A DNA stretch of 64,000 nt from Aquimarina aggregata (GTDB taxonomy: Bacteria > Bacteroidota > Bacteroidia > Flavobacteriales > Flavobacteriaceae): the NCBI RefSeq assembly GCF_001632745.1, contig NZ_LQRT01000003.1, forward strand, positions 62,001-126,000, given 5' to 3'. Below are positions 30,664 through 40,569 of the stretch, one piece after another (the first letter of the stretch is position 1; the number at the start of each line of letters is the position of its first letter). Under the pieces are notes generated by a model. It had not been told where the DNA came from. It saw only the letters and a program-made list of their open reading frames with translations, and did no database searches. Made by a program: the position numbers and the translations under genes.

Positions 30664-31929
30664 TTAAACCAAAAACTGAAAAAGATCTGGTTTATCATTT
30701 AAATAATCACCAAAGAAATTTAGATCTTTCATTCTACAAACCAAAGGTTCTAAATCTTTTTTATCCTTTAACTCTATCCCTACAACAGCAGGACCATTTT
30801 CTCTGCTAGATTTCTTTGAGTATTCAAAATGGGTAATATCGTCATTAGGTCCTAGTACTTCTCCTACAAACTGTTTTAACGCTCCTGCTCTTTGCGGAAA
30901 TCGTACAATAAAGTAATGTTTCAAATCTGCATATAGTAAAGCCCTTTCTTTTATTTCTGCCGTGCGCGTAATGTCATTATTACTTCCACTTACAATACAA
31001 ACAACATTTTTACCTTTTATTTTATCTTTATAAAATTCTAAGGCTGCTAGGGTAAGTGCACCTGCCGGTTCGACTACTATTGCATCTCTATTGTATAAGT
31101 CTAAAATAGTTTGACATACTAGCCCTTCTGGAACGGTAAACATATCAGACAAGTGTTCTTTACAAATCTCAAAATTAAGATCTCCAACCTTTTGAACCGC
31201 AGCTCCATCAATAAACTTATCTATATTTGAAATTTCTGTATTTACATTATTCCTTATCGATGTTAACATTGAGGGTGCTCCTTTTGGTTCGATACCAATA
31301 ATTTTAGTATTTGGTGATAACGCTTTTATTGCACCACATAGGCCTGATGCCAGCCCACCTCCTCCTATTGCTACAAAAATATAGTCTATAGGAACATTTG
31401 TTTGTTTACATATTTCAAGACCAATTGTTCCTTGTCCTTCTATGGTTTTAGGATCTTCAAAAGGATGTACAAATGTTTTTCCTTCGGATTTGCAAATTTT
31501 CATTGCGGCTTTTGAAGAGTCATCAAAAGTATCTCCTTCAAGTACTATTTTCACATGCTCACCACCGAACATTTGAGTTTGAGCAATCTTTTGTTTTGGG
31601 GTAACTGTAGGCATATAAATAGTACCTTTGATACCTAAATGATGGCATGCAAAAGCTACACCTTGAGCATGATTTCCTGCACTAGCGCAAACTACCCCTC
31701 TTTCTAATTCTTCCTTACTAAGAGAGCTTATTTTATTAAATGCCCCTCTAATCTTATACGATCTAACACGTTGAAGATCTTCTCTTTTAAGCAAGATATT
31801 GGCATCATATCGTCTAGAATACCTAATACTATTCATAAGAGGAGTTTCCATAGCAACATCTTTAATCATAGAAGCTGCTTTTTGGATATCTTCTAATTCA
31901 GGAAAATAAGTGGTGGTCGCTACATTCAT
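30664..31929 (-). CDS. ilvA: Threonine ammonia-lyase, biosynthetic
   Basis: Deaminates threonine to 2-oxobutanoate, first step of isoleucine synthesis. PLP Lys59 in RVRSYKIRGAFNKIS, then ASAGNHAQGVAFACHHLG and the glycine loop AIGGGGLASGLCG. At 421 aa it has a single short ACT-like C-terminal domain (from about 335: HYFIVRFPQRAGALKQFVGE), similar to the Bacillus and Corynebacterium enzymes and shorter than E. coli IlvA. Isoleucine feedback is possible. Last gene of the ilv operon, 119 bases after ilvC. Confidence 0.94.
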   Translation of the reverse strand: MNVATTTYFPELEDIQKAASMIKDVAMETPLMNSIRYSRRYDANILLKREDLQRVRSYKIRGAFNKISSLSKEELERGVVCASAGNHAQGVAFACHHLGIKGTIYMPTVTPKQKIAQTQMFGGEHVKIVLEGDTFDDSSKAAMKICKSEGKTFVHPFEDPKTIEGQGTIGLEICKQTNVPIDYIFVAIGGGGLASGLCGAIKALSPNTKIIGIEPKGAPSMLTSIRNNVNTEISNIDKFIDGAAVQKVGDLNFEICKEHLSDMFTVPEGLVCQTILDLYNRDAIVVEPAGALTLAALEFYKDKIKGKNVVCIVSGSNNDITRTAEIKERALLYADLKHYFIVRFPQRAGALKQFVGEVLGPNDDITHFEYSKKSSRENGPAVVGIELKDKKDLEPLVCRMKDLNFFGDYLNDKPDLFQFLV

Positions 31930-32048: not shown

Positions 32049-33524
32049 TTAAACTATGGGTTTCATTGCCGTCATCGATGCTCTTAACTTTGCACCGATA
32101 CGTTCTATTGGGTGATTTCTTAATGCAGCATTAACTTCAATTAATTTTGCATTATCAACACCATTATTTTTTCCTTTGTCATATGCTTCACCGATAACAT
32201 TGGTATCAATATTTTTCATAAAATCAGTTAGTAATGGTTTACATGCATGATCAAACAAATAACAACCATACTCAGCTGTATCAGAAATAACTCTATTCAT
32301 TTCAAACAACTTTTTACGTGCAATCGTATTCGCGATTAAAGGTGTCTCATGTAAAGACTCATAATACGCTGATTCTTCTATAATTCCTGAATCCGTCATT
32401 GCTTCAAAGGCTAATTCTACTCCGGCTCTTACAAATGCAACCATAAGTACACCATTATCATAGAATTCTTGTTCAGAAATCTCTACATCACCTGCAGCCG
32501 TTTTTTCAAATGCTGTATTTCCTGTAGCTTCTCTCCATGACAAAAGGTTCTTATCATCATTACTCCAATCTTCCATCATTGTTTTTGAAAAATATCCAGA
32601 TATAATATCATCCATATGTTTTCTAAACAGGGGGCGCATTATATCTTTTAGCTCTTCAGATAATTCAAAAGCCATAATTTTTGAAGGATTCGATAATCTA
32701 TCCATCATATTTGTTATTCCTCCATATTTTAATCCTTCGGTAATAGTCTCCCAACCGTATTGTATTAACCTAGAAGCATAACCAGCATCAATTCCTTTTT
32801 CTATCATTTTATCAAAACACAAAATTGATCCTGTCTGTAACAAACCACATAAAATTGTTTGTTCTCCCATGAGATCAGATTTTACTTCTGCTACAAATGA
32901 AGACTCTAATACTCCTGCTCTATGCCCTCCTGTGGCTACTGCATAAGCTTTAGCTTGATCAAATCCATGATTTTGAGGATCATTCTCTGGATGCACCGCT
33001 ATTAAAGTAGGAACACCAAATCCTCTTTTATATTCTTCTCTTACTTCTGATCCTGGGCATTTTGGTGCGACCATAATTACGGTTAAGTCATCTCTGACCT
33101 GCATACCTTCTTCTACAATATTAAATCCATGAGAGTAAGATAAAGTTGCTCCTTTTTTCATTAAAGGCATCACCGTATTAACTACTTGTGTATGTTGTTT
33201 GTCTGGAGTAAGGTTAATTACCATATCTGCAGTAGGAACAAGTTCCTCATAAGTCCCTACAGTAAACCCATTATCCATAGCATTTTTATATGATTGTCTT
33301 TTTTCTTTAATTGCAGCTTCACGTAACGTATAAGAAATATCAAGTCCAGAATCTCTCATATTTAAGCCCTGATTAAGTCCCTGAGCACCACATCCTACAA
33401 TTACAATTTTCTTTTGTTTTAGAGCTTCAACACCTTCTGAGAATTCATCTGCATTCATGAATCGACATTTTCCTAATTGTGTTAACTGGTCTCTTAATGA
33501 TAGCGTATTAAAATAATTTGCCAT
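32049..33524 (-). CDS. ilvC: Ketol-acid reductoisomerase, class II (long form)
   Basis: Isomerises and reduces acetolactate and acetohydroxybutyrate. NADP loop [21 protein letters not shown], then the metal-site segments ([34 protein letters not shown]). With 491 aa it is the class II enzyme with duplicated C-terminal domain, as in E. coli, not the 330-aa class I. Gap of 119 bases to ilvN upstream. Confidence 0.95.
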
Positions 33525-33643: not shown

Positions 33644-34177
33644 TTATTCAACTTCTTCTGTAAAGCTTTCTAATATTTTAGAGATATGCATTTTATCTTT
33701 AGTGACTGCAATTCTACCTGATCTCACAAATTGCATTAATCCATGAGGTTCTAATTTATGATATAACGCTTCTACTTCTCTTCTTCTTCCTGTCTTCTCT
33801 ATTACAAAAAACTCTGGTGTTACCGTGACAATATTTGCGTTGCTATTTTTTATAACATTTTGAATCTGACGTTCTTCAAACAGTAATCTTGATTCTACCT
33901 TAAATAAAGCTGTTTCTTGATATATGATTTCTTCTTCTCTATGATAGAAAGCTTTAATAACTTCAATTTGCTTTTCTATTTGCCCGACTATCTTCTTTAC
34001 TTGTTCCTCGGTAACCTTTATAGCTATCGTAAATCGAAATACATCTTTAATCTCTGATTGAGATGCAGTCATACTATCCAAATTAATATGACGTTTTAAA
34101 AAGATTGCAGATATTCTATTAAGCAATCCTATGTTGTTTTCGGTATAAACCGAAATCGTATAATTCTCTCTTTCCAT
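33644..34177 (-). CDS. ilvN: Acetolactate synthase small (regulatory) subunit
   Basis: 177 aa with an N-terminal ACT domain (YTISVYTENNIGLLNRISAIFLKRHINLDS) and a C-terminal small-subunit domain ending in FVRSGRIAVTK-type sequence. It binds valine and stimulates or inhibits the large subunit, whose stop codon is 2 bases upstream. ilvN versus ilvH naming is a convention here. Confidence 0.93.
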   Translation of the reverse strand: MERENYTISVYTENNIGLLNRISAIFLKRHINLDSMTASQSEIKDVFRFTIAIKVTEEQVKKIVGQIEKQIEVIKAFYHREEEIIYQETALFKVESRLLFEERQIQNVIKNSNANIVTVTPEFFVIEKTGRRREVEALYHKLEPHGLMQFVRSGRIAVTKDKMHISKILESFTEEVE

Positions 34178-34179
34178 AA

Positions 34180-35913
34180 CTAACTTAATCTTATATCTGA
34201 AACTGATGCACCTGTAGGAATCATAGGAAAAACATTATTTTCTTTTTCTACGCATACCTCTAAAAAGTACGGTTCTTTAGAAGCGATCATCTCTGAAATA
34301 GCTTCTTGTAAATCCTCTCGTTTTGTTACTCTTTTAGCTTCGATATGGTAACCTTTTGCAATGGTGACAAAATCAGGGTTTACCATTTCTGTGGAAGCAT
34401 ACCTCTTATCAAAAAATAATTGTTGCCACTGACGAACCATACCAAGAAAATCATTGTTTAATACAACAATTTTCACTGGCACTCTAGTTTGAAAAATAGT
34501 ACCTAATTCTTGTATTGTCATTTGATAACCTCCATCACCGATAATAGCTACTACTTCTCTTTCTGGCGCACCCATTTTTGCTCCAATTGCAGCAGGTAAT
34601 GCAAAGCCCATGGTACCTAATCCTCCTGAAGTAATATTACTTTTAGTCTTTGTAAATTCTGCATAGCGACATGCAATCATCTGATGCTGTCCAACATCTG
34701 AAACAATTACAGTATCACCTTTTGTTTCTTCATTAATGCCTCTTAATACTTCACCCATAGAAAGACTATCTTTAGTAGGATGTAACTCCTCCTTAATAAC
34801 TTTATCGTATTCTATAGTATCATAATCCTTGAACTCCTGAACCCAAGCATCATGGGAATTAGGTTCTATTAAAGGCATTAATTTGGATAACGTTTTTTTA
34901 ACATTTCCCATTACAGCTACATCAGCATATACATTTTTATTTACTTCTGCAGGATCTATTTCAAAATGGATAACTTTAGCTTGTTTTGCATAGGTTTCTA
35001 AGTTACCTGTTACTCTATCATCAAAACGCATTCCTATGGCCAATAATAAATCACATTCATTAGTTAATTTATTTGGTCCGTAATTACCATGCATACCAAC
35101 CATTCCCACATTTAAAGGATGCATCGTTGGTAGTGCAGATAGTCCTAAAATTGTCCATGCTGCAGGAATACCTGTTTTTTCTATAAAGTTCTTGAGTTCT
35201 TCTTCTGCCTCGCCTAGAATTACTCCTTGCCCAAAAACAATCATTGGTTTTTTAGCGTTTCTTATCAATTCGGCTGCTTCTTCTAGGCTCTTAGGATCTG
35301 TTTCAGGAACTGGTTTATAACTTCGGACTCCTTTACATTTTTCATATTCAAAATCCAACTCTCCAAACTGAGCATCTTTAGTAATATCAATTAACACAGG
35401 ACCTGGACGACCTGAGCGTGCTATATAAAAAGCTTTGGCAATTACTTCAGGGATATCTTCAGCTTTCGTTACTTGACAATTCCATTTGGTAATTGGTGTA
35501 GAGATTCCGATAATATCTGTTTCTTGAAAAGCATCTGTACCTAGTAAATGAGAGCCTACTTGTCCTGTGATGCATACCATTGGTGTAGAATCAATTTGAG
35601 CATCTGCAATACCTGTAACAAAATTAGTAGCTCCAGGTCCGGAAGTTGCTATTGCTACCCCTACTTTACCACTAGTTCTGGCATACCCTTGCGCCGCGTG
35701 TGTAGCGCCTTGTTCGTGCCTTGTTAAGATATGTCGCAATTGATCTTGAAACTTATATAACTCATCATACACAGGCATAATAGCCCCACCTGGATATCCA
35801 TAGATCAAATCTACTCCTTCTGCTAGCAAACATCTAATTACCGCTTCTGCTCCAGTCATTTTCTTTGTTGTTGCTATGGTTTCCTTTTTTATTGTCTGCG
35901 TTTGTGTTTCCAT
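34180..35913 (-). CDS. ilvB: Acetolactate synthase large (catalytic) subunit
   Basis: 577 aa ThDP-dependent enzyme: MTGAEAVIRCLLAEGVDLIYGYPGGAIMPVYDEL with the catalytic Glu of LTRHEQGATHAA, central FAD/regulatory domain, and C-terminal ThDP motif IGDGGYQMTIQELGTIFQ...NNDFLGMVRQWQQLFF. It condenses pyruvate with pyruvate or 2-oxobutanoate. Second gene of the ilv operon, 98 bases after ilvD. Confidence 0.95.
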   Translation of the reverse strand: METQTQTIKKETIATTKKMTGAEAVIRCLLAEGVDLIYGYPGGAIMPVYDELYKFQDQLRHILTRHEQGATHAAQGYARTSGKVGVAIATSGPGATNFVTGIADAQIDSTPMVCITGQVGSHLLGTDAFQETDIIGISTPITKWNCQVTKAEDIPEVIAKAFYIARSGRPGPVLIDITKDAQFGELDFEYEKCKGVRSYKPVPETDPKSLEEAAELIRNAKKPMIVFGQGVILGEAEEELKNFIEKTGIPAAWTILGLSALPTMHPLNVGMVGMHGNYGPNKLTNECDLLLAIGMRFDDRVTGNLETYAKQAKVIHFEIDPAEVNKNVYADVAVMGNVKKTLSKLMPLIEPNSHDAWVQEFKDYDTIEYDKVIKEELHPTKDSLSMGEVLRGINEETKGDTVIVSDVGQHQMIACRYAEFTKTKSNITSGGLGTMGFALPAAIGAKMGAPEREVVAIIGDGGYQMTIQELGTIFQTRVPVKIVVLNNDFLGMVRQWQQLFFDKRYASTEMVNPDFVTIAKGYHIEAKRVTKREDLQEAISEMIASKEPYFLEVCVEKENNVFPMIPTGASVSDIRLS

Positions 35914-36011: not shown

Positions 36012-37688
36012 TTAAAATTCATCTGTTACACATCCTTTAGATGCAGATGAAACTGTGTTCGCATATTTATACAATACACCTTTACTAAATTTTAGTTCTG
36101 GTTGTACCCATAATGCTTTTCTTTTTTCAATTTCCTTCGTATCAACATCTACTGTTATTGAGTTGGTTTCTGCATCTATAGTAATTATATCTCCATTTTT
36201 AACTAAACCAATCAATCCTCCTTCTTGTGCTTCAGGAGTAATATGTCCCACAACGAAACCATGTGTTCCTCCTGAAAATCTTCCATCGGTTATCAAAGCC
36301 ACATCTTTTCCTAAACCTGCTCCCATAATGGCAGCTGTTGGCTTTAACATTTCTGGCATACCAGGACCTCCTTTGGGTCCTTCATATCGAATGACGACGA
36401 CATCTCCTTTCTGCACTTGTCCTTCTCTAATACCTTTGTTTGCCTCATATTCACCTTCAAAGACCTTAGCCTTACCTTGAAAACGTAATCCTTCTTTACC
36501 AGTAATTTTTGCAACGCAACCTTCTTCTGCCAGGTTACCAAACATAATTCTAAGATGACCAGTTTGCTTTATTGGATTTTCTAGTGGTTTTATGACTTCT
36601 TGACCTTCTGTCAAATCTTCTACTTCTAACAAATTTTCTGCTAGTGTTTTTCCTGTGACTGTTAGGCAATCCCCATGTAACAATCCTTTTACTAATAAAT
36701 ATTTTAATACCGCAGGGATTCCTCCTACTTCATGAACATCTTCCATCAAATATTTACCACTTGGTTTTAAATCCGCCAAGAAGGGTGTTTCATCACTAAT
36801 TCTTTGAAAATCTGCAAGTGTAAACTCTACATCGGCAGCTCTTGCAATGGCTAAAAAGTGCAAAACTGCGTTGGTAGAACCACCAAGAACAGTTACTAAT
36901 CGTATAGCATTTTCTAAAGATTTTCTTGTTACGATATCTTTAGGTTTAATATCTTTTTCCAGAAGTACTCTCATCGCTCTACCTGCTGCGATACTCTCTT
37001 CTTCTTTATTTTTACTAATTGCAGGGTTTGAAGAGTTAAACGGCAATGACATACCCAATGCTTCTATTGCAGAAGCCATTGTATTGGCAGTATACATCCC
37101 ACCACAAGCTCCGGCTCCAGGAACTGATTTTTTAATTACTGATTTATATTCACTATTTTCCATAGTACCAGCAACTTTTTCTCCCCATGCTTCAAAAGCT
37201 GAAACTATATCAAGTTTTTTTCCATTATGACAACCAGAAGCTATTGTACCCCCATACACCAATATTGAAGGCCGATTTAATCTCAACATAGCCATTAAAG
37301 CTCCCGGCATATTTTTATCACACCCCACTACGGTCACCATTCCATCATAAGACATGGCTTGAACTACGGTTTCCATAGAATCTGCAATAACATCTCTTGA
37401 TGGCAATGAAAAACGCATTCCGGGTGTACCCATTGAAATTCCATCACTTACTCCTATAGTATTAAAAATTAAACCCACTACATCTTCTTCTAGGGTTCCT
37501 TTTTTAACCAATTTGGCAAGATCATTAAGATGCATATTACAAGGATTACCTTCATAACCAGTACTAGCAATACCAACCAAAGGCTTTTCAAAATCTTCTT
37601 CGGTAAGACCAATAGCATGCAACATAGCTTGTGCTGCAGGCTGTGTATCATCTTGCGTAACTTGTTTACTATATTTATTTATATTCAT
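36012..37688 (-). CDS. ilvD: Dihydroxy-acid dehydratase
   Basis: 558 aa Fe-S dehydratase that makes the 2-oxo acids of valine and isoleucine. Cluster cysteines are seen in [20 protein letters not shown] and [16 protein letters not shown], plus an N-terminal Asn/Cys segment (GNPCNMHL). First structural gene of the ilv operon; a leader region of more than 600 bases with two attenuators precedes it. Rightward frames on the opposite strand (for example 36055-36480) are shadows. Confidence 0.95.
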
Positions 37689-37932
37689 TCTTTCTGAATG
37701 TATTTATTTTATTAATTATTCAATAATTTAACTATTTCACCTACATATTCGCATTTAAATAAAATCCGACAGTATAAAATTATTTTGTTGTGGCTAAAGT
37801 GACATTTATAATTCAACCTCCTTACAATATCCAACATAACACCATTCACCTTTTAACATTGATTTACAGATACTTATACTCTTTTTATTTACAATCACTA
37901 TTTGTTAATTTTTATTAAACATTATTTTAGAT
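37689..37932 (-). other. Untranslated region between the second attenuator and ilvD
   Basis: About 240 AT-rich bases. It holds a 41-codon frame (37712-37837, minus) and a 7-codon frame MVLCWIL (37822-37845, minus); neither shows homology or conservation evidence. A GGAGG word lies at about 37816-37820. No clear second promoter was found here, so ilvD expression seems to depend on read-through of both attenuators. Confidence 0.4.
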
Positions 37933-37964
37933 CAAAAAAAATCCCTTCAAAAACTTGAAGGGAT
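37933..37964 (-). terminator. ilv attenuator 2 terminator (ilvD-proximal)
   Basis: On the minus strand ATCCCTTCAA, loop GTTT, TTGAAGGGAT, then a run of seven to eight T. It lies about 34 bases after the stop codon of the proximal leader peptide. A competing partner is visible: AGGGAT at 37989-37994 (minus) right after the leader stop can pair with the 5' arm ATCCCT. That AGGGAT word itself lies in the loop of CATCAT/ATGATG (37982-37987 and 38000-38005), so mutually exclusive folds are possible. Confidence 0.92.
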
Positions 37965-37997
37965 CTATAAATTTTAAATTGCATCATTATCCCTCCT

Positions 37998-38060
37998 TTA
38001 TGATGAGTTAATCACCACAATACTAATGACATTAATAATTACACAATTAAACATATTCAT
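37998..38060 (-). CDS. ilv leader peptide 2 (Val/Ile-rich, 20 aa)
   Basis: MNMFNCVIINVISIVVINSS then TAA. Nine of twenty residues are Val or Ile (V7, I8, I9, V11, I12, I14, V15, V16, I17), with no Leu, directly in front of a Rho-independent terminator and the Val/Ile operon. This is the classic layout of translation-coupled attenuation: ribosomes stall when charged tRNA-Val or tRNA-Ile is scarce. It aligns without gaps to the upstream leader peptide (I8, I9, V11, I12, S13, I14, V16, I17 and S19 identical), so the two modules are duplicates. Too short for ordinary gene callers. Confidence 0.85.
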   Translation of the reverse strand: MNMFNCVIINVISIVVINSS

Positions 38061-38170
38061 AATTCGGTTTTAAAAACAGATTCTTTATCTTATTTTAATT
38101 TTCGATAAAATTCATAACCAAACCCTATTTTTTATAAGAATTTCGTAATAACGATTTTAAAAATACGGTA

Positions 38171-38206
38171 ACAAAAAAAATCCCTTTACATTATGCAAAG
38201 GGATTT
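38171..38206 (-). terminator. ilv attenuator 1 terminator (distal)
   Basis: On the minus strand AAATCCCTTT (38206-38197), a 9-base loop, AAAGGGATTT (38187-38178), continuing into a T run. AAGGGA just after the stop of the distal leader peptide (38233-38238) can pair with the 5' arm as an antiterminator and is itself part of CCTT-GAT-AAGG. Same architecture as the proximal copy. Confidence 0.9.
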
Positions 38207-38239
38207 ATATGATATCTCTAAAATCATCAACGTCCCTTA

Positions 38240-38302
38240 TCAAGGCGAAATAATCACCTCAATACTAATGACACTAATGATATTTTTATCTAAATTTCTC
38301 AT
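38240..38302 (-). CDS. ilv leader peptide 1 (Val/Ile-rich, 20 aa)
   Basis: MRNLDKNIISVISIEVIISP then TGA. Eight Val/Ile residues lie within positions 8-18 and there is one Leu. Same length as the proximal leader peptide and the same core (IIxVISIxVIxS), but a diverged N-terminus. The promoter elements end about 10 bases before its ATG, so the message would start only a few bases from the start codon. Terminator 1 follows after 34 bases. Confidence 0.85.
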   Translation of the reverse strand: MRNLDKNIISVISIEVIISP

Positions 38303-38311
38303 TCCAGACTC

Positions 38312-38339
38312 CAAATATAAAAAAGTTTTAAAAAACAAA
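38312..38339 (-). promoter_or_regulatory. Promoter of the ilv leader
   Basis: Minus strand TTTG (38339-38336), 16-base spacer, TATATTTG (38319-38312), an exact TAnnTTTG. The spacer is somewhat short. Transcription should begin near 38306, which leaves about 4 bases before leader peptide 1. It sits 4 bases after the stop of the response-regulator gene, so some read-through from that gene is possible. Confidence 0.6.
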
Positions 38340-38342
38340 CCC

Positions 38343-38990
38343 CTATACTTTGAATAATTTATTTTTCATACAATAAATCACTAGTCCGACTCTGGTTTTT
38401 ACTTCTAGTTTTCTAAAAACTGTTTCTCTATAGTTTTCTATCGTTTTTGGACTTAAGCCCATTTCTCCCGCTATATCTTTATAGGTAAGTTCTGAACAGG
38501 CTAACTTTAAAAATCCTCTTTCTTTATCTGTTAAACGCTCATGAAATTCTACACTACCGCCTCCTTCTTCAAAATGTCTTAAGGCATTCTCTATTTTACC
38601 AGAATAATAAAATCCTTGCTCGATAACCATTTTCATAGCGAATTCAAAATTCTCAGGATGTATATCTTTTAACAAATACCCTTTGGCTCCTGCCCGAATC
38701 ATCTTAATAATAGTATCCTCATCATCCTCCATTGTTAACGCTAATACTTTTTGTTCGGATCTATGCTCTTTGAGCCATTGCATTGTTTGAACACCATCCA
38801 TGACTGGCATCTTAACATCTAAAAGAATAAGATCTGGTACTTTACGTTTATGCTTGTAATACTGAGTAAGTTCTTTTCCGTTTTTTAGAATCGCAAGAAC
38901 CTCGTATTCTTCAAGTTTTGATATCAAACTTTCTAATGACTGTGCAAATAAAAGATGATCATCAACAATAACTATGGTCTTTTTTTTCAT
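38343..38990 (-). CDS. NarL/LuxR-type response regulator
   Basis: 215 aa. Receiver domain with the acidic pair Asp10-Asp11, phosphoacceptor Asp58 (LILLDVKMP), Thr86 and Lys108 (GYLLKD), then a C-terminal LuxR-type HTH (LTDKERGFLKLACSELTYKDIAGEMGL and SPKTIENYRETVFRKL). It acts as a DNA-binding regulator. The kinase gene ends 122 bases upstream on the same strand, so it is the natural partner. Its targets are unknown; the GGGG/CCCC palindromes at 41125-41170 in front of its own cluster are candidates. Confidence 0.92.
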   Translation of the reverse strand: MKKKTIVIVDDHLLFAQSLESLISKLEEYEVLAILKNGKELTQYYKHKRKVPDLILLDVKMPVMDGVQTMQWLKEHRSEQKVLALTMEDDEDTIIKMIRAGAKGYLLKDIHPENFEFAMKMVIEQGFYYSGKIENALRHFEEGGGSVEFHERLTDKERGFLKLACSELTYKDIAGEMGLSPKTIENYRETVFRKLEVKTRVGLVIYCMKNKLFKV

Positions 38991-39112
38991 GTGTTGTTTT
39001 TATTTTTTTCAATGGTCACATGGAATCTTTGATAGTTAAAATAATTCTTTTTTATCTATCTAAAAAATTATTTTAATTATGTCGGTTTCATTTACCCCTT
39101 TTTAATCCAACT

Positions 39113-39889
39113 TTAATTCTTAATTGGATAGGACAAGGTAAGTAAAACTCCTTTATTGGGAGCAGAAGTATATTCATATTTTGCTTTAAGCAGAGCAGCA
39201 CGGCTTTTCATATTTAATAAACCAGAGCTCGCTTCTACGGTATTCATATCAAATCCAACCCCGTCATCCTGAATCTTTATATGTAAATATTCTTCTGTAT
39301 ATTCTAATTCGACATCCAGATTTGATGCCTCTGCATATTTAATAGTATTTGAAAAAAACTCTTGTATGATTCGGTACAATATAATCTCATCTTTAGGATC
39401 GATATGTTCTTCTTCTCCTTTTATGGTTAAGGTTGGCGTTAAAAAGTTAAGCTTTTTAAAGCGCTTGAGTTCTACTCTAATAGATTTTTCTAGACCTACA
39501 TTCTCGATTACCTCATGATTTAAGGTTTTAGATAAATTTCGAATCTCTTGAAGACTATCCCCCACTAGACTACGTATATCTTGTAATCCATCGGCTGTTT
39601 TTTTATCTATAGACGTACCTAGTATATTAATTTGCATCACTGCGGTAGACAACAACTGACCAATATTATCATGTAACTCCCAACTCACATTTTTTAACGC
39701 TTGCTCTTGAATCTCTATTCGAGATTTAAATATCTCATCTTCAAAACGTTGTTCTGCTTTTAATTTTTCAAAAATTAATTTGTTTTTTCGACGTTGAAAG
39801 GCAATAAAGAATATGATACCAAAAACTATAAAAAATAAAATAATTATAGTAAAATAAATTATTAGTAAGATTTGTTCTTTTTCAAGCAT
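39113..39889 (-). CDS. Sensor-poor histidine kinase (HisKA_3 / HATPase_c)
   Basis: 258 aa from MLEKEQ; an ATG 24 bases upstream (39913) lies deeper in the preceding gene and is less likely. One transmembrane helix (about 6-33), a coiled-coil linker, the HisKA_3 H-box VSWELHDNIGQLLS, and HATPase motifs IIQEFFSNTIKYAEAS (N) and IKIQDDGVGFD (G1). There is no extracytoplasmic or PAS sensor, so the polytopic protein whose gene overlaps it by 28 bases is a good candidate for the signal receiver. Confidence 0.9.
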   Translation of the reverse strand: MLEKEQILLIIYFTIIILFFIVFGIIFFIAFQRRKNKLIFEKLKAEQRFEDEIFKSRIEIQEQALKNVSWELHDNIGQLLSTAVMQINILGTSIDKKTADGLQDIRSLVGDSLQEIRNLSKTLNHEVIENVGLEKSIRVELKRFKKLNFLTPTLTIKGEEEHIDPKDEIILYRIIQEFFSNTIKYAEASNLDVELEYTEEYLHIKIQDDGVGFDMNTVEASSGLLNMKSRAALLKAKYEYTSAPNKGVLLTLSYPIKN

Positions 39890-40569
39890 ACTACAAAACC
39901 AATTGAATAGCAAGTATACATAAAAATATTTGTTGCCGTAAGAATATATCTATAAACCTCTACAAATTCTGGGTTTTTAGGATCATAATAAGATTGATAA
40001 ATTGCGATAGGATTTAAAATCAAATTAAATACTAATAGGCCTATTGAAACATAAAACGGAAAACTTTTATAAAAATCCAAAATCAAATCACTTTGCAATA
40101 ATTGATAGTAATAATAAGAAATTACCAAAATTAGTATCAATGTTCCAATAATAAAGTTTGCGTAGGAATTATTTTCAAAAGAAAATTCAGGAAAAAACAA
40201 ATTTAAAATTGATCCAATAATATAAATCATTATAAGGTATTTACTCATTTTTTTTAGCTTAATATTATCAAAAAGAGAAATAAAGAAAAAACAATAAAAT
40301 GAGTAGCTTATAATATCATATACATTATAAATCCATGTGTTTTTCACGAATATGGTATTTTTTAAACCCGAGAAAAAATCAAGATAATGTATACAAGTTG
40401 GAAGCCAACCGAATACAATTTCTATAAAAACTGTAAACCATAAAAAAATAACAAAATACCGAAACAAATAATTTGCTCGGTATTTTATCAAAAAAATTGT
40501 ACCAACAACAGCAGCGATAATCTCAAAAAAATTGATGATTATTTGGGTTATTACAACAAGTTTATACAT
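39862..40569 (-). CDS. Polytopic membrane protein, candidate sensor of the kinase
   Basis: 235 aa with about seven hydrophobic segments, for example VVITQIIINFFEIIAAVVGT, YFVIFLWFTVFIEIVFGW, YLIMIYIIGSILNLFF and FIIGTLILILVISYYYY, with few charges between. I do not recognise a named family. It begins in the stop codon of the 130-aa gene (TAATG) and overlaps the kinase gene. The arrangement suggests a membrane receptor that passes its signal to the kinase; this is inference. Confidence 0.75.
   Translation of the reverse strand: MYKLVVITQIIINFFEIIAAVVGTIFLIKYRANYLFRYFVIFLWFTVFIEIVFGWLPTCIHYLDFFSGLKNTIFVKNTWIYNVYDIISYSFYCFFFISLFDNIKLKKMSKYLIMIYIIGSILNLFFPEFSFENNSYANFIIGTLILILVISYYYYQLLQSDLILDFYKSFPFYVSIGLLVFNLILNPIAIYQSYYDPKNPEFVEVYRYILTATNIFMYTCYSIGFVVCLKKNKSY

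Follow-up and report, generated by a model that had tools for sequence, protein, structure and literature searches.

Single leader-peptide attenuators of ilv operons are a textbook form of transcriptional control, as at ilvGMEDA and ivbL of Escherichia coli. Leader-peptide attenuators have also been described for ilvBNC of Corynebacterium (PMC11857589) and ilvD of Staphylococcus aureus (PMC5794164). The E. coli, Corynebacterium and S. aureus systems resemble the locus described here in having a short leader rich in branched-chain codons, competing antiterminator and terminator structures, and a biosynthetic operon downstream. They differ from it in that each has, as far as is known, one attenuator, against two complete ones in series here, and in that the stop codon here lies directly beside the antiterminator strand. 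PMC3641672 describes attenuators of biosynthetic genes as normally single. It also describes two tandem systems. The Salmonella mgtCBR leader RNA likewise has two leader ORFs, both acting via translation, but there the ORFs answer two distinct signals, ATP and proline, whose effects add, whereas both leaders here carry codons for the same amino acids and each module has a terminator of its own. The metE leader of Bacillus clausii likewise places two terminator-based switches in series and, unlike mgtCBR, has two sites expected to be intrinsic terminators; it senses S-adenosylmethionine and coenzyme B12 directly, without leader peptides. Within the same family as the organism studied here, leader-peptide attenuation has been proposed upstream of amino-acid biosynthesis operons in Flavobacterium psychrophilum (PMC9723704), as here; a word search of the main text of that report returned no tandem attenuators and no mention of branched-chain, isoleucine, valine or ilv. 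The closest parallel we found for read-through in series is synthetic: PMC3753616 states that dynamic range improves when two pT181 attenuators act one after the other. Among the matches listed in the open-access literature there was no report of tandem branched-chain attenuators, and an earlier mention is possible.

The window analysed here is a 64,000-nucleotide stretch of the Aquimarina aggregata genome (contig NZ_LQRT01000003.1). On its minus strand, two modules with the anatomy of attenuators precede the matching biosynthetic genes, which NCBIfam names place in the order ilvD-ilvB-ilvN-ilvC-ilvA behind both leaders:

38336..38339, minus strand: candidate promoter -33 element TTTG, read from the sequence
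38312..38319, minus strand: candidate Bacteroidota -7 box TATATTTG, sigma-A-like, its 3′ end 9 nt ahead of leader 1
38240..38302, minus strand: leader peptide 1 MRNLDKNIISVISIEVIISP, stop included; ATG at 38302, TGA at 38240
38233..38238, minus strand: computed antiterminator strand 1 AAGGGA, complementary to TCCCTT of terminator 1
38178..38206, minus strand: intrinsic terminator 1, 13 pairs, then a T tract
37998..38060, minus strand: leader peptide 2 MNMFNCVIINVISIVVINSS, stop included; start at 38060, TAA at 37998
37989..37996, minus strand: computed antiterminator strand 2 GGAGGGAT, complementary to ATCCCTTC of terminator 2
37939..37966, minus strand: intrinsic terminator 2, 12 pairs, then a T tract
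37690..37925, minus strand: conserved stretch from terminator 2 to ilvD, possible operator or second promoter
36012..37688, minus strand: ilvD, first gene of the presumed operon (NCBIfam)
34180..35913, minus strand: ilvB (NCBIfam)
33644..34177, minus strand: ilvN (NCBIfam)
32049..33524, minus strand: ilvC (NCBIfam)
30664..31929, minus strand: ilvA (NCBIfam)

The genes immediately upstream of the ilv leader encode a LuxR-type response regulator and a histidine kinase (38343-39913, minus strand).

We consider it very probable that these modules are two ribosome-mediated attenuators in series, which respond to the same amino acids and sit on one transcript ahead of the ilv operon. The best reading is a new variation on known ilv attenuation, a same-signal pair with two terminators. 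An initial annotation of the window, made from its sequence alone, had pointed to two 20-codon, Ile/Val-rich minus-strand leaders ahead of the operon, and coordinates re-derived from the sequence gave the same two leaders. The terminator and T tract reported after each leader are also present; the reported gap of 34 bases is not, as the distance from stop codon to stem is 33 nt in module 1 (M1) and 31 nt in module 2 (M2). The two peptides align without gaps and have nine positions in common besides Met, as had been noted. Both modules fold well below shuffled sequences, with z-scores of -5.3 and -2.6 for modules 1 and 2, respectively.

To count such modules we used a detection script that asks for a short Ile/Val-rich ORF and a terminator, and which overlooks weak stems and designs outside its specification. 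It found one module in 1080 dinucleotide-shuffled upstreams of 800 nt and, when both strands of all 64 kb of the window were scanned, the two modules described here and one spurious non-ATG match (28999, plus strand), which rules out a chance origin. A riboswitch or T-box is ruled out by the absence of any Rfam family match in the window at the gathering score; the best match below threshold was PyrG_leader, with an E-value of 0.02.

In the proposed mechanism, a ribosome would translate the short leader of each module. When charged Ile and Val tRNAs are plentiful, it would reach the stop codon and cover the adjoining G-rich antiterminator strand, so that the terminator forms and transcription ends. 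A ribosome stalled at least three codons before the stop would leave that strand free to pair with the 5′ arm of the terminator, and the polymerase would continue. Coupling of transcription and translation in the phylum is assumed.

We examined this switch in the 54 modules of 27 same-genus genomes that carry both, which also underlie the folding, codon-position, spacer, protecting-helix, promoter-box and coding statistics given below. Measured from the first base of the stop codon, a GGG run starts at a distance of 2-7 nt in 53 of the 54 modules, and in most it is part of the strand complementary to the 5′ arm of the terminator. Counting pairing anywhere in the spacer, the CCC core of the terminator pairs with the spacer at a probability above 0.5 in 54/54 real spacers, compared with 7/54 averaged over mononucleotide shuffles (20 per spacer). 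Folding of the leader RNA thus gives an antiterminator as alternative to the terminator in both modules, and the attenuator reading of the initial annotation gains a computed, mutually exclusive antiterminator for each of its two structures.

The nascent RNA downstream of the ribosome was then folded codon by codon, with an assumed footprint of 13 nt. The median antiterminator probability was 0.00-0.01 when the A site held the stop codon or the last sense codon; two codons before the stop (stop-2) it was 0.07 (M1) and 0.75 (M2), and from stop-3 back to stop-14 it was 0.99-1.00. The model therefore has the antiterminator excluding the terminator in a manner that depends on ribosome position. 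Ile/Val codons occur at neither stop-1 nor stop-2 (0/54 each), and are found at stop-3 in 23/54 modules, at stop-4 in 51/54 and at stop-5 in 54/54. The placement of these codons and the predicted switch share nearly one boundary, and nothing else in these data speaks as strongly for translation of the leaders by ribosomes, with stalling as the signal.

Without a ribosome, the nascent RNA is not uniformly OFF in the model, the median antiterminator probability being 0.71 for M1 and 0.44 for M2. A protecting helix favouring termination when the leader is untranslated is partly supported by duplex predictions, which beat shuffles (p ≤ 0.05) in 15/27 M1 and 9/27 M2 modules. RNAalifold on the module alignment gave the terminator only, and the protector and antiterminator were therefore examined by scripts.

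The leaders themselves are conserved in composition. The Ile/Val fraction is 0.35-0.60 in 54/54, and these codons are kept in relatives that retain the hairpins; their loss there, which would have counted against the initial annotation, is not seen. Any coding signal beyond the Ile/Val content is weak: the synonymous fraction is 0.30 against 0.25 expected in both modules, differing Ile/Val codons remain Ile/Val at frequencies of 0.49 (M1) and 0.65 (M2) against 0.35 expected, and no clear third-position excess is seen in M2 leaders.

Two modules could also answer different signals, as in the mgtCBR leader, for instance Ile, Val and Leu in differing proportions. Val (15.0 vs 11.7 per cent) and Leu (2.8 vs 1.7 per cent) are somewhat more frequent in leader 2 than in leader 1, and in eight tandems detected by script outside the genus the second module is of another design, with slightly more Leu in its leaders (8.3 vs 6.4 per cent). 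Both Aquimarina leaders are nevertheless dominated by Ile codons, chiefly ATT, followed by Val, and by codon content they do not separate into an mgtCBR-type pair. We regard a division of signals as improbable and favour two modules responding to the same amino acids.

Whether the modules lie on one transcript depends on where transcription starts. A relaxed -7 box is present no more than 24 nt ahead of leader 1 in 26 of the 27 genomes, compared with 5.0 expected from shuffles, and no more than 24 nt ahead of leader 2 in 5/27, compared with 4.0 expected. The strict form, TAnnTTTG, lies 7-10 nt ahead of leader 1 in 18/27 genomes and within 60 nt ahead of leader 2 in 1/27. TTG is found 14-26 nt upstream of the -7 box in 17/27, as a raw count. 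In PMC9723704, the F. psychrophilum -7 box is placed at -12 to -5; by analogy, transcription is predicted to start near 38307, leaving about 5 nt of message ahead of the first start codon. As a box stands before leader 1 and does not exceed chance before leader 2, both terminators, and hence both modules, should lie on one transcript.

Full-length ilv mRNA would then require read-through at both terminators, so that the leak and read-through probabilities should multiply. The result would be a low basal level, a wider dynamic range and, under Ile/Val starvation, a steeper response. Where the strict box is present (18 genomes), only about 3 to 6 nt would separate the predicted start of the transcript from leader 1. 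Leader 1 may thus be translated as a nearly leaderless message, and we infer that leader 2 must be initiated internally.

To follow the pair through the genus, we examined 800 to 1000 nt upstream of ilvD in 33 genomes; one further genome (G021) gave no ilvD match and lies outside the 33. Relatives had been proposed as a place to look for one versus two modules ahead of ilvD, and two are present in 27 of the 33: 26 by script and one, G024, by eye, its second module having a weakened terminator stem that fails the script. Aquimarina longa, A. mytili and A. intermedia are among the species with both. Accordingly, an intrinsic terminator follows the leader in 53/54 modules by script and in the second module of G024 by eye. 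One genome (G487) has one module and five (G003, G005, G007, G013 and G031) have none. The sequences are related, so these counts are not independent events. Maintenance of the pair in most of the same-genus genomes examined suggests that the cell checks its amino-acid supply twice before making the enzymes, and a conserved same-signal pair with two terminators offers a natural test of what attenuation in series adds. Conserved leader-peptide attenuators would also imply close coupling of transcription and translation in flavobacteria.

The weakened stem of G024 could be taken as a sign that only one module is active and the other is a decaying copy, as could four distinct upstreams of the genus in which a single module was detected, of M1 type in three (L064, L080 and L142) and M2 type in one (L068). 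Both modules, though, keep the leader, antiterminator, terminator and codon placement in 27 genomes, and both modules of the window fold well below shuffles, making decay of one copy very unlikely.

The terminators might instead serve mainly to end transcripts of the upstream response-regulator gene, with the short ORFs incidental. Terminator 1 is only 137 nt past the stop codon of that gene in the window, and a response-regulator gene lies upstream in 19 of 30 same-genus loci and in 18 of the 27 with two modules. In the other nine two-module loci, there is no regulator gene within the fetched 1500 nt or up to the contig end, while one locus (L028) carries the regulator gene and no module; the pair therefore goes with ilvD. 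Together with the promoter box that intervenes between the regulator gene and leader 1, these loci rule out terminators belonging to the upstream gene. This reading would also leave the placement of the Ile/Val codons unexplained, and we find it scarcely credible beside a pair of ilv attenuators.

Some of the sequence between terminator 2 and ilvD is conserved as well. Genomes of the genus share about 180 nt of 37690-37925 (minus strand), in which motifs keep nearly constant places. Three TGTAA-containing motifs occur in 22, 17 and 21 of the 27 genomes, TTGGAT[AG]TTGTAAG in 21/27 and GATTGTAAA in 22/27. A TAnnTTTATAC element downstream of both terminators is present in 22/27, compared with 0.1 expected, and the core of the stretch is visible by eye in G013, a genome without either module. 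Its retention there makes a bypass promoter or an operator possible, and from its sequence the stretch might be an operator or part of a promoter bypassing both terminators. In the latter case a second promoter downstream of terminator 2 could carry much of the expression, leaving the attenuators to set only part of it, and the near-fixed motifs, TAnnTTTATAC and the core in G013 all fit such an arrangement. Against it, strict TAnnTTTG is absent from the stretch (0/27), relaxed TAnnTTT[GA] is present in 27/27 but expected by chance in 16.1, and no clear -33 element was seen by eye. A promoter of this weight is unlikely, if the most serious of the alternatives considered here, and control by the two attenuators remains our preferred reading.

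How the two modules arose can be read from their alignment, which holds 53 modules, since the second module of G024 was dropped by extraction; the identity and nearest-neighbour figures rest on this set. In 50/53 cases, a module and its nearest neighbour share their label, M1 or M2. Identity between M1 and M2 is 0.632 within a genome and 0.630 between genomes, and the partner from the same genome beats the mean foreign partner in only 13/26. These values rule against a recent duplication or gene conversion and indicate old, separate lineages without homogenisation. Profiles of M1 and M2 score above 8 bits on 31 and 33, respectively, of 36 modules of a design found outside the genus (type A, described below), and on only 3 and 5 of 32 modules of a second design (type B). 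As both profiles fit type A and hardly type B, the Aquimarina pair appears to be a duplication of one design, and the sequences are best read as an old duplication whose copies have since evolved separately. The origin by duplication proposed in the initial annotation is thereby supported.

Beyond the genus, a covariance model of the modules, searched order-wide under stricter filters, matched 26 of 296 genomes, the window's own included. Its 34 match rows gave 30 loci (four rows were without a locus), two of them those of the window. Downstream, the other 28 have ilvD in 23 cases, ilvA in 3 and ilvB in 2. Where ilvD lies about 1 kb from the module, the intervening gene is ilvE in both loci tested (L035 and L054).

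For the family, 120 ilvD upstreams were sampled: those of G005 and G007, and 118 from the 195 family genomes that gave a match. The remainder of the 195 comprised the window's own genome, others whose matches were weaker or not listed, and some with matches close to contig ends. In the 117 of these upstreams from outside the genus, the script found no module in 71, one in 41 and two in 5. Single attenuators are thus usual, as had been stated: 41 of the 46 upstreams with any module carry one.

Among 210 distinct upstreams (of 230), eight tandems outside the genus were found by script, including those of Tenacibaculum agarivorans (L100) and Bizionia arctica (L103). In all eight a module of the GCCTTCC type comes first and one of the GCCTGTATC type second (A then B). 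Together with the profile scores, this order rules out a single pair of designs inherited by all tandems. Type B occurs alone in 24 of the 210 upstreams, and in 22/32 type B modules a GATRYR strand begins one base into the stop codon. One module that the script labelled a1 (L089) is a Winogradskyella module resembling type A. In this second design, with the terminator GCCTGTATC..GATACAGGC and seen in L090, L108, L155, L212 and similar upstreams, part of the stop codon falls within the antiterminator strand, as in TGATACAG.

Further tandems were found in L035 and L038 and, by eye, in family f5 (L048 and L054-L057) and in L051, where the tandem lies at the edge of a contig. A DNA search with the f5 tandem of L056 matched 42 of 120 f5 genomes at E ≤ 0.001, five at nearly full length (G063, G072, G135, G147 and G309, the last being the genome of L057) and 37 over short segments.

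That tandems recur with different module compositions suggests selection for the doubling itself. We propose tentatively, and with slightly more doubt than confidence, that in the Flavobacteriales branched-chain operons recurrently stand under double ribosome-mediated attenuation, and that this architecture was assembled on more than one occasion and from different parts: Aquimarina has two copies of one design, and elsewhere two designs are combined in a fixed order. It would amount to a two-step check, in which transcription goes on only when two ribosomes, initiated separately and the first of them on a nearly leaderless message, both stall for the same amino acids. If so, the check would keep leak and noise down and make the response sharper.

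Genus g21 shows yet another arrangement, in which three genomes (G293, G057 and G243; loci L045, L060 and L061) have a separate module ahead of ilvA, in addition to one before ilvD.
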